From Erythrobasidium yunnanense (lineage: Eukaryota > Basidiomycota > Cystobasidiomycetes > Erythrobasidiales > Erythrobasidiaceae): a stretch of DNA of 64,000 nt. The notes under the pieces were generated by a model. The model did not search any database and was not told the origin of the DNA. It was given only the letters and a program-made list of their open reading frames with translations. Each line of letters opens with the position of its first letter. Position 1 is the first letter of the stretch. The stretch spans positions 4,697,652 through 4,761,651 of the forward strand of contig BCJC01000001.1 in assembly GCA_001600175.1 (NCBI GenBank), in the 5' to 3' direction. Of the stretch, positions 21,864 to 27,026 are shown piece after piece. Both the position numbers and the translations under genes were made by a program.

Positions 21864-22690
21864 CTATGGGCATGTACCTCTGGCGATGAGTACGCTGCAT
21901 GGTGCGTCCTTAATGATTGCGTCAGAGACAGACCTGCGAAACAGACACGGAAGAAATCATGTCAGTCCGGTGCGATACAGATACCATAGACCGATGTTCC
22001 TCACTTGGTAGTCATTTTCTTGAGTCCTGATAGCTTTCTCTTTCCAAGGATTATGAGCTGGGCATTGTGCTTCTTTGCGACCTTCAAGAGCTGTCCTTCA
22101 GGTCTGCCATGCACGATATGCGTGAAAGTCGTTACTCCGCTATCGAATTCTTGGGCAATCTTGTTTACAGCCTGGACTTGGTTGTCGGAGCGCAGTCGCA
22201 GCTTGTCTACTCCACTATCACCTTCCCTGTATACAGCGAAACAACCATATGATATGTCAGCCAGCGGACTTAAGGGAAATTAGTGATGCCAAAGCGGGGC
22301 CTTACACTTTCGCGAGGACGTTGAAGAGGACGACAGTGTCGCCGGCCTTTGCTACATACTTGGCTTCTCTGGTGACATTCTAAGCGACGGAGAGGCAGGA
22401 AAAAAGCATTAGTCACGGAATCGATGACGGGGTTCGCAAGAAAGCGCCAGCTAAAGCACCTGAACATGCTCATCGTGGTTGAAGTCGAGTGCAGCAATGA
22501 TGACTCTTCCAGATGGTCCTGTAGTTTCCTGATTCTCTGGGATGGTCTTGCCATGTCTATCGACGATCCTGGATCGCTCTTCAGGTCGGAGCAAGGAAGC
22601 TTCGGGATAAGTATCGTTGTCCAGATCTTCTAGCGAGTACTGAGGTGCGATGACCTTTGTGTCTTCGGGGACATAGACGTTCTTCGACAT
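21864..22690 (-). CDS. Universal-stress-protein-like (USP fold) protein
   Basis: Five short exons rebuild one USP-like alpha/beta domain of about 190 residues. The leader is MSKNVYVPEDTKVIAPQYSL. Strand 1 is RVIIAALDFNHDEHVQ, followed by NVTREAKYVAKAGDTVVLFN with LAKV. After two introns come VNKIAQEFDSGVTTFTHIVH, GRPEGQLLKVAKKHNAQLII and LGKRKLSGLKKMTTK. The final exon gives SVSDAIIKDAPCSVLIARG. Bacterial and fungal USPs share this order (IIVAxD..., HGxP...AD-LIVMGxRGxSGL...GSVSxxVLxxAPCPVLV). The ATP-loop glycines (G-x2-G-x9-G-S) are only partly kept, so nucleotide binding is uncertain. A role in stress signalling is known for some relatives but inferred here. Confidence 0.72.
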
Positions 22691-23100
22691 GATGGCTGAT
22701 TTGAGAGGAGAAGAAGAAGCAAGCTCTTGGCTTATGACGACAAAGAGTTGTTTCTCGATTCTCAAATTGACGATACATACTGACAGCTAATGATGACTGA
22801 CGATAAGCTGATGTGTTCTTTGTAGAGACTATACTTTCAAGAGTTCTGGTGCGGCATGCCGACCTGGCATCCTGGCTCATGCATGAGCTAACATGATCTC
22901 TCATCACTCGCTCTCGGAAACAGCGTAAACATCAACTTCCTGGAGGATGTACCGCTCTCCTTCTCCTCTCATCCTACCGCTCTCTTGTTATTCTGCATCG
23001 CCTCGACAGCTCTGACCAATCTGAAAAACATCGTCTTTTTGAAAAGACATTAACCTCCTACCCTCCAATACCACCTCACATCCAGGAGAACAAGCACACA
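22691..23100. other. Divergent intergenic region, 410 bases
   Basis: Lies between the USP-like gene (minus) and the first member of the tandem small-protein family (plus). Strong pyrimidine tracts (tctccttctcctctcatcct, about 22956-22975; cctcctaccctccaatacca, about 23053-23072) precede the plus-strand start and mark a likely transcription start region. Confidence 0.5.
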
Positions 23101-23532
23101 ATGTCCTCTAGCGAACTATCCGGCTTAGCGACCGATTCGAACGGCGAGAGGTACTTTGTCGACATTAAAGACCGAGACGTCTACCACAAGCGAATGGCAG
23201 GATACCACAACATTGGTGGTAAACGGGTACCAGGTACCGAGCACTCTATCGCAAGACTCGGCGAACCAAACCCGAATGTAGTCATACCTATCGAAGAAGC
23301 GAAAATGCGCCTAGCTATGACCGATGAAATGCTCAAAGCATTAAATCCGAAGAAAGGCAAGAAAAGCAAAAGAGGACACGCAAACACCAACCCATCAATA
23401 CCAGCAAGGACTAGGGTGAAACGCACGGACGCGGAAAGAGTCGCTGCCGAAGTCGCTAGACTTGGAGTCAATCAAGGCAGCGGAGTCATCAAGGGTACAA
23501 GAACTCGAGGCGTAACAGCACAAAAAGGCTGA
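23101..23532 (+). CDS. Tandem small-protein family, member 1
   Basis: Intronless gene for a 143-residue basic protein, not recognised. It reads MSSSELSGLATDSNGERYFV, DIKDRDVYHKRMAGYHNIGG, RVPGTEHSIARLGEPNPNVV and EEAKMRLAMTDEMLKALNPK, then a Lys/Arg-rich tail (KKGKKSKRGHANTNP) with a helix (AERVAAEVARLGVN). The core is shared with two neighbours at 23974-24378 and 25742-25981: a TDxNGExYF box, a (Y/H)HNIGG box, an IxRLGxPxPNxVI box, then a Met-rich helix. No signal peptide or membrane segment is present. The basic tail suggests a nucleic-acid or nuclear partner, which is inference only. Confidence 0.7.
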   Translation: MSSSELSGLATDSNGERYFVDIKDRDVYHKRMAGYHNIGGKRVPGTEHSIARLGEPNPNVVIPIEEAKMRLAMTDEMLKALNPKKGKKSKRGHANTNPSIPARTRVKRTDAERVAAEVARLGVNQGSGVIKGTRTRGVTAQKG

Positions 23533-23973
23533 AGGGGTTGCATGTTTCATGTTTGTGCTGCGATGTTTCTAAGCACATATGCGATTATGCTTGCCCATCT
23601 CTCACCTCATCCAGGACCTTCACAAATTGTCAACTGACCCTATGTCTACGGAAGAGAGCACTCCTTATCGCCCTGCCCTGTTCATCCGTCTTCGATACCT
23701 CCAAAGCACAACGAGCAGAACTACCTGCGCTCCCATACACATGCGATATTCACTTACACATACTATACTCACATACCCATGCAGTCCTTACATACAAATC
23801 CGAGATGACGTTATGCAAGCACAACAGCCCTCCACCGCCTCTTGCGCCTAGATTTTGTGCCCTATCCTATGCAAGCGCCCTCGAACAGATGCGATGACAA
23901 CCTCTCTCTCTCTTCTGCTCTGAACGGCACCCACAGGGACCTCCGACACTCCAATCCTCGCATCTGCCCAAGC
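23533..23973. other. Spacer between tandem family members 1 and 2, 441 bases
   Basis: No confident gene. Two overlapping plus-strand frames occur but are rich in stops when compared with the family's pattern. The stretch should hold the 3' end of member 1 and the promoter of member 2. A ct-rich run (cctctctctctcttctgctc, about 23900-23919) lies 55 bases before the member 2 start. Confidence 0.45.
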
Positions 23974-24378
23974 ATGCCAAAACGTTTCCCTACGTACGAT
24001 GTATCTTACAGATTCCCGACAGACAGGAATGGGGAGCCTTACTTCATCAGCGAAGATGGCTACAGAGTCTACCCAAAGCGCAAATCAGGCCATCACAATA
24101 TCGGAGGCGAGATGGTCGAACCTACCGACTTCACGATCAAGCGTTTAGGCCAGCCGGATCCTAATAGAGTCATCTCGAGGAAGCACGCCGATAAGCTCTT
24201 GGGGATGACGAACGATCAGCATCGTGGATGGAAGAAAGGCAAGAAATACGAAGAGAAACGAGCGGAGCGTATAGCTCAGCGCGACGGACAGGCTAGTTCA
24301 TCTAGAGATTCAAACAGAAACAGGAGCTATGGCTCATCGGATGAAGAAAGTGAGGGCGGGCGAAAGAAAAGACGCTGA
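23974..24378 (+). CDS. Tandem small-protein family, member 2
   Basis: Intronless 134-residue protein. MPKRFPTYDVSYRFPTDRNG leads into EPYFISEDGYRVYPKRKSGH, HNIGGEMVEPTDFTIKRLGQ, PDPNRVISRKHADKLLGMTN and a long basic/Ser tail (WKKGKKYEEKRAERIAQRDG, SDEESEGGRKKRR). It aligns with member 1 along TDxNGExYF...VYxKRxxGxHNIGG...IxRLGxPxPNxVI without gaps over about 65 residues. The start at 23974 is preferred over an upstream in-frame ATG because similarity to member 1 begins just after it. The tail ends in a nuclear-signal-like cluster. Function unknown. Confidence 0.68.
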   Translation: MPKRFPTYDVSYRFPTDRNGEPYFISEDGYRVYPKRKSGHHNIGGEMVEPTDFTIKRLGQPDPNRVISRKHADKLLGMTNDQHRGWKKGKKYEEKRAERIAQRDGQASSSRDSNRNRSYGSSDEESEGGRKKRR

Positions 24379-24766
24379 GGCAGATCATGCTGGCCAATGC
24401 TCAGTGATTGGCTCGTGGGCGCCTTTCCAACAGACAGAATGCTCCTTTACATTGACGAACTGCTACTTTGCGGTCTTGGGAAGGACATGTGAACATTGGT
24501 TACGGACTTGTCTACCCATTTTGGGTTCTTGCGCATGTAGCTCTGCTTCCGTCTAATTGAGGGAGCTTGCTCTTGCTTCCGCGTACGTACACGACCTGCG
24601 ACAGTATTGCTACAACGGCGACGTGAAGATCACATCCAACTCCACTAGCTGATCCCATGTTGGCTTGAGGCATATTTCGCGGACAAGCATCCCAATTGAC
24701 ATCCTTATCTGGCGCTGCCAACTCGTAACACTTGGAAGCTCAGTCTTCACACAAGCTACTGCCTGC
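24379..24766. other. Intergenic, 388 bases
   Basis: Between member 2 and the unrelated spliced gene. The frame of the following gene stays open leftward to about 24670 without an ATG, so its first exon might lie inside this block. No trace of a further family copy was seen. Confidence 0.4.
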
Positions 24767-25501
24767 ATGCCTCTCAGGTTCATTGACGACTTCGTGTGGT
24801 CGTTGGTCGAGCGACAGCAGAAAGCCAGGCGAGCAGCCGACAGCCGGGCGCCATTCAAGGATCCACAGACTCTGGATCAGTTTCTGGCCGACCTGCAGTA
24901 TGTCGACGCCGCTGACGTGCCATATGGAGCAGATGCACAGAACTGACTATGTTCTCCAGATGGCTAGAAGACGAGGTGTCTCACATTCCAATCACACTGG
25001 CTCCGAAGGTGTGGGAACGTCAGTTCCAGGAGAGCCTCATCAATCACTGTGTAGGTGTCACTTATATATTGTCGACTTTCAAGAGCATCTAGCCTAACAC
25101 AAGAGGTCTCTTTTTTATCATAGGGTCGCCTACTCCGCACAATCGAGGCCGTACGCACTATTTGCCAACAGGATGCCTTCGACGTCTGGCGTCCTTTTGT
25201 GCAAATAGTTTTGGAAGGTATCCCCGAGGTCAGAGAATTGGGCATGCAAAGGATCATGAAGGAAAAAACATCTTGGAACCCCTGGCTGCTTAGCATGTGT
25301 CTCGCCAACATGCACTCCAACATGATGCGTGTGATGACTGATGTTGGATACAAGGACGTAGCAGGTGCGCCTCGACTCTCTTGCCTATCACACTGGGCTG
25401 ACCGCTCGGCGGACCTTCTGACTACAGATCGACTCGCACAGCAAGATATGGCAGTTCAGCGAGAAGAAGACAGCAAGTCCAAGACAGCGAATACGTCCTG
25501 A
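24767..25501 (+). CDS. Unknown helical protein inserted between family members
   Basis: Four exons. MPLRFIDDFVWSLVERQQKA and FKDPQTLDQFLADLQ join, over a 67-base intron with consensus donor gtatgt, WLEDEVSHIPITLAPKVWER and QFQESLINHC. A second intron leads to GRLLRTIEAVRTICQQDAFD, VWRPFVQIVLEGIPEVRELG, MKEKTSWNPWLLSMCLANMH and MMRVMTDVGYKDVA. A third leads to DRLAQQDMAVQREEDSKSKT. The protein is helix-rich, with five Trp residues. No family recognised. It shows no similarity to the small proteins flanking it, so it interrupts rather than belongs to that array. The frame is open for about 95 bases before the chosen ATG. Confidence 0.6.
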
Positions 25502-25741
25502 CTTTCACCATACTATCGCTGCCCACTCCACCAGATCAACGATTGACAAATATCTGCTCTTTGCTCCGCATCGATGGTAGCAACACGACGAAGGAGGCAC
25601 AAGCATATCCTGCTGGTGTTGCAGCGCCTTAGTCCGGCAAGGGCCTGCCCTTTCATAAAGCAGCGCTCCTACCCTGTCTTCGATCAGAGTCTTCTGGCCG
25701 CTTACGTCTACACCCCAACAATCTAGCCTAGATCGCAGAGT

Positions 25742-25981
25742 ATGCCACGGCGGTCATCTCGTCATACTTCTGCACAAGTACAGCAAAGCCGGACGTACCA
25801 TAACATCGCCGGGAAGCTAGTCCAAGCGACCGCCTTCACCATCGAGCGTCTAGGCAGGCCAGATCCTGATCTTGTCATCCCTGCGGAAGACGTACATGCA
25901 CTACTTCGAATGTCAGATCGGGCTTTTCAACGAGCCCAGAAACAAGGGGGCACTACAATCGTTAAAAGGGAAACAGTATGA
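25742..25981 (+). CDS. Tandem small-protein family, member 3 (short form)
   Basis: A 79-residue frame: MPRRSSRHTSAQVQQSRTYH, NIAGKLVQATAFTIERLGRP, DPDLVIPAEDVHALLRMSDR and AFQRAQKQGGTTIVKRETV. The HNIxG, TIxRLGxPxPxxVI and Met-helix boxes match members 1 and 2. The N-terminal TDxNGExYF box is replaced by an unrelated basic Ser-rich leader, and the long basic tail is absent. It may be a functional short form or a decaying copy; the matching boxes have no break. No upstream exon carrying the missing box was found. Confidence 0.6.
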   Translation: MPRRSSRHTSAQVQQSRTYHNIAGKLVQATAFTIERLGRPDPDLVIPAEDVHALLRMSDRAFQRAQKQGGTTIVKRETV

Positions 25982-26289
25982 GGAGCCAGGAGTCGAGACT
26001 TATGTCAGGAGTCATCTAGATGGCGTCGGTAAGATCTCTAACGGTTAAGACGTAAGAATCAGTGACACTGGCCAGACGCTCGGAAGTCAGATGGATGTAG
26101 GCTAGATGCATAACGTCGTCAACTCCAGACAGATCAAGAAGGATTCTGAAGAAGTATGTACATGGCTTGCTAATGCTTACAACAACCCTTTCCCACAACG
26201 ACATCCAGCCAGCCAGACAGAAAGACGGACCGCAAATGCTCTATACGTACATCTCACTCCTTATGTATTTGACAGTATGACAACCAGAG

Positions 26290-27026
26290 CTACGGCTCTG
26301 TAGACGTCGCTTCGTATCTAGCTTTTGATCCAGCGAATAGTGCAGCTTGATGTGCGAGTAGTTCTTCTTCCGTCATTCCTGATTGCGCGAGCTTGTTTGT
26401 CACTTTGCGCGCTCGGTTGTCCTGCGTGACAATATCATATCAGCTTGTGATGCGGGGGGTACAGTAACGGTCGAATTGACCTTGCTCTGCTGTTTATGCT
26501 CTGAAGCTACCTCGTCGACCTGGTCTACGAAGGCTTCGTAGCCTAAGGACTGTATCCAAAACATAGTCAGTACAGTCCTTTGTTCAAGCTACGCAAGTAG
26601 AGTAGAAGCCATCCTGACACACCTTGAGCGCTCCAATGATATGTTCGGGGAGGATGGTCTTCTTCGAGTCCTTTTCGCATATCTCATTCGCTTCACTTGA
26701 TATGAGGAGGATGAACTCTGTATTTCCACTTCCTCTCAGCTTGTACGCTCTGGGGATTTGGATTGTCCGGCCTCTCGATAGCCATAAGAGACGGACCTTT
26801 CAAGCAGTCACCGAGGAATTCCTTGACGTCTTTTGCGCATGTCATGTCGTCTGATAGGTATTCTGATGTCGTTCGAAGCGTCAGTATACAGTTAGAGAGG
26901 CAGGGGATAGCTAAGCAAGGCCAGGCCAGGCTGACCAGACACGAGTTTGGCGACTGTTGCTTTTGGGAGAGTCAGGTCATCTGGATTGGGCGTTCCCGCA
27001 GCAGCTGGGCCTTCGTTGTCGGACAT
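26290..27026 (-). CDS. NCB2: NC2-beta (Dr1) histone-fold transcription repressor
   Basis: Beta subunit of negative cofactor 2, which pairs with NC2-alpha (Bur6) through histone folds and binds TBP on DNA. Start ATG 27026 gives MSDNEGPAAAGTPNPDDLTL, PKATVAKLV, then, after an intron, EYLSDDMTCAKDVKEFL. The next exon carries the signature TEFILLISSEANEICEKDSK and KTILPEHIIGALK. Then come SLGYEAFVDQVDEVASEHKQ and a short basic C-terminal region (NRARKVTKLAQSGMTEEELL) ending EATSTEP. Human and yeast Dr1 show the same order: (D/L)PKA...EFIxxISSEANEIC...TIxPEHVIxAL...LGF. Divergent with SmF, whose start is only 97 bases away. Confidence 0.93.

Follow-up and report, generated by a model that had tools for sequence, protein, structure and literature searches.

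A small family of intronless genes for basic proteins in Erythrobasidium yunnanense: an apparently old tandem pair with a shared core and unlike tails, and a shortened third copy

Three single-exon genes on the plus strand of the Erythrobasidium yunnanense genome encode small, basic proteins that are paralogs beyond doubt and share a conserved core of 49 residues. They look like an old, small and probably lineage-restricted gene family of an ordinary kind and not like a recent arms-race burst. Our preferred reading, which we hold tentatively and at a little below even confidence, is that this intronless, lineage-restricted family provides an intracellular, most likely nuclear adaptor associated with nucleic acid or an RNP, the copies having diverged by their tails. 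The window (the whole stretch of DNA analyzed, 64,000 nucleotides) corresponds to C1:4697652-4761651 in an assembly of 20.9 Mb and 10 contigs, of which C1 comprises 4,947,887 bases. All three open reading frames reported by an earlier, sequence-only reading of this DNA are present where it placed them, and are listed here with their main features (P0001, P0002 and P0003 are metagenomic relatives described below):

23101..23532, plus strand: copy 1, 143 amino acids, basic, single exon; type common to P0001 and P0002
23131..23157, plus strand: N-terminal box of copy 1, TDSNGERYF
23203..23349, plus strand: conserved core of copy 1, 49 amino acids, YHNIGG to ALNP
23428..23460, plus strand: predicted C-terminal helix of copy 1, DAERVAAEVAR; P0001 and P0002 conserve it, and P0003 has a stretch resembling it
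23974..24378, plus strand: copy 2, 134 amino acids, basic, single exon; type common to P0003
24019..24045, plus strand: N-terminal box of copy 2, TDRNGEPYF
24091..24237, plus strand: conserved core of copy 2, 49 amino acids
24298..24375, plus strand: Ser/Arg/Glu-rich tail of copy 2 ending GGRKKRR, resembling the RD/RS-rich tail of P0003 that ends GGKRKR
24767..25501, plus strand: spliced gene, not a family member, located between copies 2 and 3; about 178 amino acids, modeled by eye
25742..25981, plus strand: copy 3, 79 amino acids, core intact, without the N-terminal box and long tail
25796..25942, plus strand: conserved core of copy 3, 49 amino acids

The proteins are basic as claimed (pI 10.3, 10.0 and 11.2 for copies 1, 2 and 3), and their intronless structure is borne out by the alignment of copy 1 with P0001 over 100% of its length and by a start of copy 2 in register with that of P0003. 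For copy 2 we preferred the start at 23974 over an in-frame upstream ATG at 23869, which would add 35 residues and give a protein of 169 residues (23869-24378, +), because the start of P0003 is in register with 23974. The accompanying claim that most neighbors are spliced stands for the two genes that we modeled by eye, both of which need introns: the gene at 24767-25501 (+; introns at 24898-24959, 25051-25123 and 25365-25427 in the model), which has no Pfam match at E ≤ 1, and a universal-stress-protein (Usp) family gene at about 22001-22690 (−), upstream of copy 1 (Usp E = 1.1e-10 for the spliced reading). Because the former lies between copies 2 and 3, the three copies are not strictly adjacent. 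The locus lies about 224–227 kb from the end of contig C1, in the vicinity of genes encoding a medium subunit of an adaptor complex, the Usp protein and ERB1/BOP1 (best match of an ERB1 exon among PDB sequences, 8i9p at 301.9 bits; next, 8fkp at 279.8 bits). For the acetyl-CoA synthetase of this genome, a 312-aa frame matches PDB 5ifi best (474.5 bits) and 7kq6 less well (426.0 bits), a one-gene lead to Basidiomycota that the ERB1 scores do not settle.

As a separate observation on this assembly, the repeat found at contig ends is not TTAGGG but a telomere-like unit of 11 nt, TTTACAGAGGG, with the variant TTACAGAGGG. The 16-mer CCCTCTGTAAACCCTC occurs 73 times genome-wide (control 0), with 70 of the 73 occurrences at contig ends, namely both ends of C1, C3 and C4, the right ends of C2, C5 and C9 and the left end of C7; no telomere-like repeat was seen within about 600 bases of the C7 right end or the C9 left end. 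Judged by title, the literature matches listed for 11-mers of TTTACAGAGGG include no telomere paper. The three interior exact matches of CCCTCTGTAAACCCTC, at C1:2218270-2218285 (−), C3:564802-564817 (−) and C5:1621216-1621231 (+), are candidate telomerase-RNA templates or interstitial repeats, and none matches Rfam. The best candidate is the site on C1, which overlaps no frame above 60 amino acids; on C3 there are two overlapping frames, of 123 and 98 amino acids, and on C5 likewise two, of 62 and 157 amino acids, the longer of which contains what we take to be glucose-6-phosphate isomerase sequence.

Paralogy of the three copies was established by pairwise comparison, with Smith-Waterman scores of 169, 110 and 108 versus best scores of 59, 49 and 60 in 1000 shuffles each, and blastp E values of 1.6e-20 (copies 1 and 2), 3.0e-14 (1 and 3) and 3.0e-14 (2 and 3). 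The sequence-only reading had described an ordered set of boxes, most of which reappear when the copies are aligned box by box. The TDxNGExYF box is limited to copies 1 and 2, as claimed, and all three have (S/T)IxRLGxPxP(N/D)xVI, in which copy 3 has D where the other two have N. From the longer VYxKRxxG(Y/H)HNIGG box, the HNI(G/A)G part is common to all three, but the VYxKRxxG part is confined to copies 1 and 2, copy 3 retaining 'RTYHNIAG'. The proposed 'Met-rich helix' has a single invariant methionine, M73 in copy 1, and hardly qualifies as Met-rich. Besides the core, which is all that copy 3 retains, copies 1 and 2 thus share VYxKR and the N-terminal box. Across all six family members (copies 1–3 and P0001–P0003), the invariant core residues are H36, N37, G40, T46, I50, R52, L53, P56, P58, V61, I62 and M73 (copy-1 numbering), and the N-terminal box, as (T/I)DxNGExYF, is present in five of six, being missing from copy 3.

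Searches of about 5.8 billion proteins recovered three relatives, all metagenomic and either called 'hypothetical protein' or unnamed: P0001 (E = 8.9e-51; 65% identity over 100%) and P0002 (E = 9.4e-47) with copy 1 as query, and P0003 (E = 2.3e-26) with a five-member alignment as query; copy 2 as query returned zero candidates from this collection. Since none of the window's own proteins was listed there, the collection may include few fungal genomes, and the lack of further relatives in it says little. Pattern matches in viral contigs (n = 16) and in bacterial and archaeal genomes (n = 8) yielded no confirmed relatives. P0001 and P0003 (both from JGI) are each found on one contig of 11,647 bases; from this equal figure they are probably on one and the same contig, and therefore probably linked there as copies 1 and 2 are here.

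Copy 1 shares 66% identity with both P0001 and P0002, and copy 2 shares 52% with P0003. In reverse searches, identity to the other paralog was 45% for P0001 and 41% for P0003, versus 66% and 52% to the best partner, and copies 1 and 2 are 45–46% identical to each other. Since the copy-1 and copy-2 types are each closer to their outside partner than to each other, the duplication looks, from these comparisons, older than the split of this fungus from the organism that carries P0001 and P0003. A tree of the 49 core residues from the six sequences groups copy 2 with P0003 (support 87) and places copy 2, P0003 and copy 3 apart from copy 1, P0001 and P0002 (support 96); copy 3 has the longest terminal branch, and its placement is uncertain because the tree is built from six short sequences only.

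The family had been called undescribed, with a strong match to a known domain named beforehand as evidence against this. We found no such match in Pfam, NCBIfam, PHROGs or PDB sequences, and the description holds in these four: none of the six members matched a Pfam family at E ≤ 10 or an NCBIfam family, PHROGs gave chance-level matches only (best 0.014, each family in one of six members) and the best E values among PDB sequences were 1.5 (copy 1 query) and 0.41 (profile query). By title, no such family appears among the literature matches listed for the string 'HNIGG'. 'Not described' therefore refers to the libraries searched and to the titles among the literature matches listed.

Across the 49-codon core, pS is 0.88, 0.79 and 0.66 and pN is 0.37, 0.38 and 0.34 for pairs 1–2, 1–3 and 2–3, respectively, with synonymous sites near or at saturation. 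In neutral simulations at equal nucleotide identity (3000 runs), the observed amino-acid identity was reached in 0, 0 and 0.37% of runs for the same pairs. This shows that the core has been under constraint along the path between copies, a statement about the path and not about each copy separately. An open frame alone proves little, because the probability of finding no stop under neutrality is 17–19%. Measured against random synonymous codons, copies 1 and 2 use codons much as neighboring exons do (z = 3.5 and 3.7; 5.1 for an ERB1 exon that is itself in the reference). Copy 3 does not (z = 0.2), its own frame scoring below its two other frames.

This last result bears on whether copy 3 is a decaying relic in a family with two working genes, a proposal that concerns copy 3 only, is compatible with the other readings and comes, in our judgment, close to an even call. 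The missing N-terminal boxes and long tail, the low codon-usage score beside those of copies 1 and 2 and a terminal branch longer than any other in the core tree are all consistent with decay. No upstream exon with the missing box was seen when three frames were read from 25380 on. However, the core frame of copy 3 is open, its identity to copies 1 and 2 exceeds that in the neutral simulations (0 of 3000 runs for copies 1 and 3; 0.37% for copies 2 and 3) and its 79 codons leave little power for the codon test.

When the 20.9-Mb genome was searched in six frames with the protein sequences of each copy, P0001 and P0003, only these three sites were found; as such searches score the best candidates only, three copies is a lower bound. 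A degenerate DNA pattern for HNI(G/A)G matched the three copies and one site on contig C7, which we took as chance (no RLG box in frame; best tblastn E = 0.44 to any copy). We also considered and rejected a transposable-element protein: the three copies all lie within 2.9 kb, and only 12–22-nt repeats were found in 22800–26400.

The sequence-only reading had interpreted the genes as a local amplification of a fast-evolving gene under lineage-specific selection, for example in dealings with a host, a rival or a mobile element. The genome search instead gives three copies and not an expanding array. Nor did 'fast-evolving' survive comparison with both types conserved elsewhere at 66% and 52% and with a core pN of 0.34–0.38 versus a pS of 0.66–0.88. 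The selection proposed is likewise unsupported; a hydropathy scan found no secretion-like N-terminus, which weighs against an effector facing a host or rival. Conflict-driven, rapidly evolving, lineage-specific genes, engaged with a host, a rival or a mobile element, could well be small, basic, tandem and uncharacterized, with no Pfam or NCBIfam match and chance-level PHROGs matches only, as these are. Yet we consider this explanation very unlikely, given the conservation of both types in another lineage, the small number of copies found, core nonsynonymous differences well below synonymous ones, the absence of a secretion-like N-terminus, the presence of at most one cysteine in each of the six members and the position of the locus relative to the contig end and the genes around it. 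A secreted effector in particular finds no backing, as a Kyte-Doolittle hydropathy scan, the only secretion test used, detected no hydrophobic N-terminal signal segment in any of the six members (best 12-residue N-terminal hydropathy, −0.75 to 0.96).

Together, one constrained core and two unlike basic tails suggest a partner-binding core with tails that set place or target. The pointers to the nucleus are a pI of 10–11, K[KR]x[KR] clusters in five of six members (copy 3 has none) and the RS/RD-like tail of P0003, all of them features of composition. Because shuffling the five cluster-bearing proteins also produces a K[KR]x[KR] cluster in 34–48% of cases, we infer the nuclear location from them and do not read it directly; nucleic-acid or RNP binding is likewise proposed from composition, and a division of labor between copies 1 and 2 would be a further inferred step. 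A nucleic-acid-binding domain is not backed by any fold match. A protein-protein adaptor in a cytoplasmic complex, with a basic tail that has no nucleic-acid role, is a possible but doubtful alternative: the conserved Pro/Gly loop RLGxPxPNxVI in the core may be a partner-binding surface in such a complex, although the basic tails of both types and the RS/RD-like tail of P0003 favor the nucleus without being decisive.

In the preferred reading of a nuclear adaptor, the family would have arisen by an old tandem duplication, and its proteins would be intracellular and most likely nuclear. In each, some 50–75 residues would fold into a core (beta-hairpin HNIGGKxV, helix, short strand and two short helices) that binds one conserved partner, and the basic, probably disordered tail of copies 1 and 2 would bind nucleic acid or an RNP and carry the nuclear-localization-like cluster. 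With the core kept and the tails diverged, the tails may decide place or target, the copy-1 type having a conserved helix around TDAERVAxExARL and the copy-2 type a tail rich in RS, RD and KR, such that copies 1 and 2 might act as two specialized versions. Copy 3 would be a shortened, core-only form and could be a third version of minor importance or else a gene being lost. A bolder extension, which we regard as unlikely, is that the core represents a small domain not described before, which arose in one fungal lineage, was duplicated before the lineage radiated and was split by tail change into two specialized nuclear factors; if true, the pair would have been added to a conserved nuclear machine in this lineage only. 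This is apparently one of many uncharacterized lineage-restricted fungal families, with a clear anatomy: two old partners, each with a conserved tail of its own, and a stripped-down third copy. It offers a tidy case of new small proteins settling into a genome, with no direct bearing on a long-standing open question.

The sequence-only reading had called for structure prediction of the shared core. AlphaFold models of copy 1 and of the copy-2 core have the same order of elements (hairpin, helix, strand and two helices), with best 10-residue blocks at pLDDT 85 and 91, respectively; the two were built from alignments of nearly the same six sequences and are not independent (pTM 0.36 and 0.52), and confidence in the full copy-1 model is low. 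Foldseek searches with both models returned no significant match to a solved structure.

Among known systems, the adenylate-forming (ANL) enzymes share a look-alike stretch with the family, and their hairpin-helix segment stands before the C-terminal domain. HNIGGKxVxxTE resembles the segment INVSGHRLSTAE of the genome's own acetyl-CoA synthetase, and ANL enzymes account for 50 of 162 and 50 of 82 of the weak Foldseek matches listed for the two models. Domestication of part of a transposable element or of a larger enzyme, such as this segment, is nonetheless a highly improbable origin for the family: there is no enzyme around the family core, sequence similarity does not exceed that of shuffles and the fold match is not significant. 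The histone-like DNA-binding protein HmvA (PDB 8bdk) is the sole profile match among PDB sequences and covers part of the core and tail, but at E = 0.41 the match is at chance level; the histone fold has no beta-hairpin, whereas the predicted core of this family begins with one, and we rejected a histone fold on both counts. Compared with the helix-turn-helix of excisionase and MerR-type proteins, VIPxExAxxLLxMTD is similar in having two short helices with a three-residue turn, but its conserved alanine stands five residues before the turn Gly/Ala, versus four in the usual pattern, and neither Pfam nor the fold searches gave a significant match for this identity. The metagenomic proteins, finally, are alike in type, with P0001 and P0002 corresponding to copy 1 and P0003 to copy 2.
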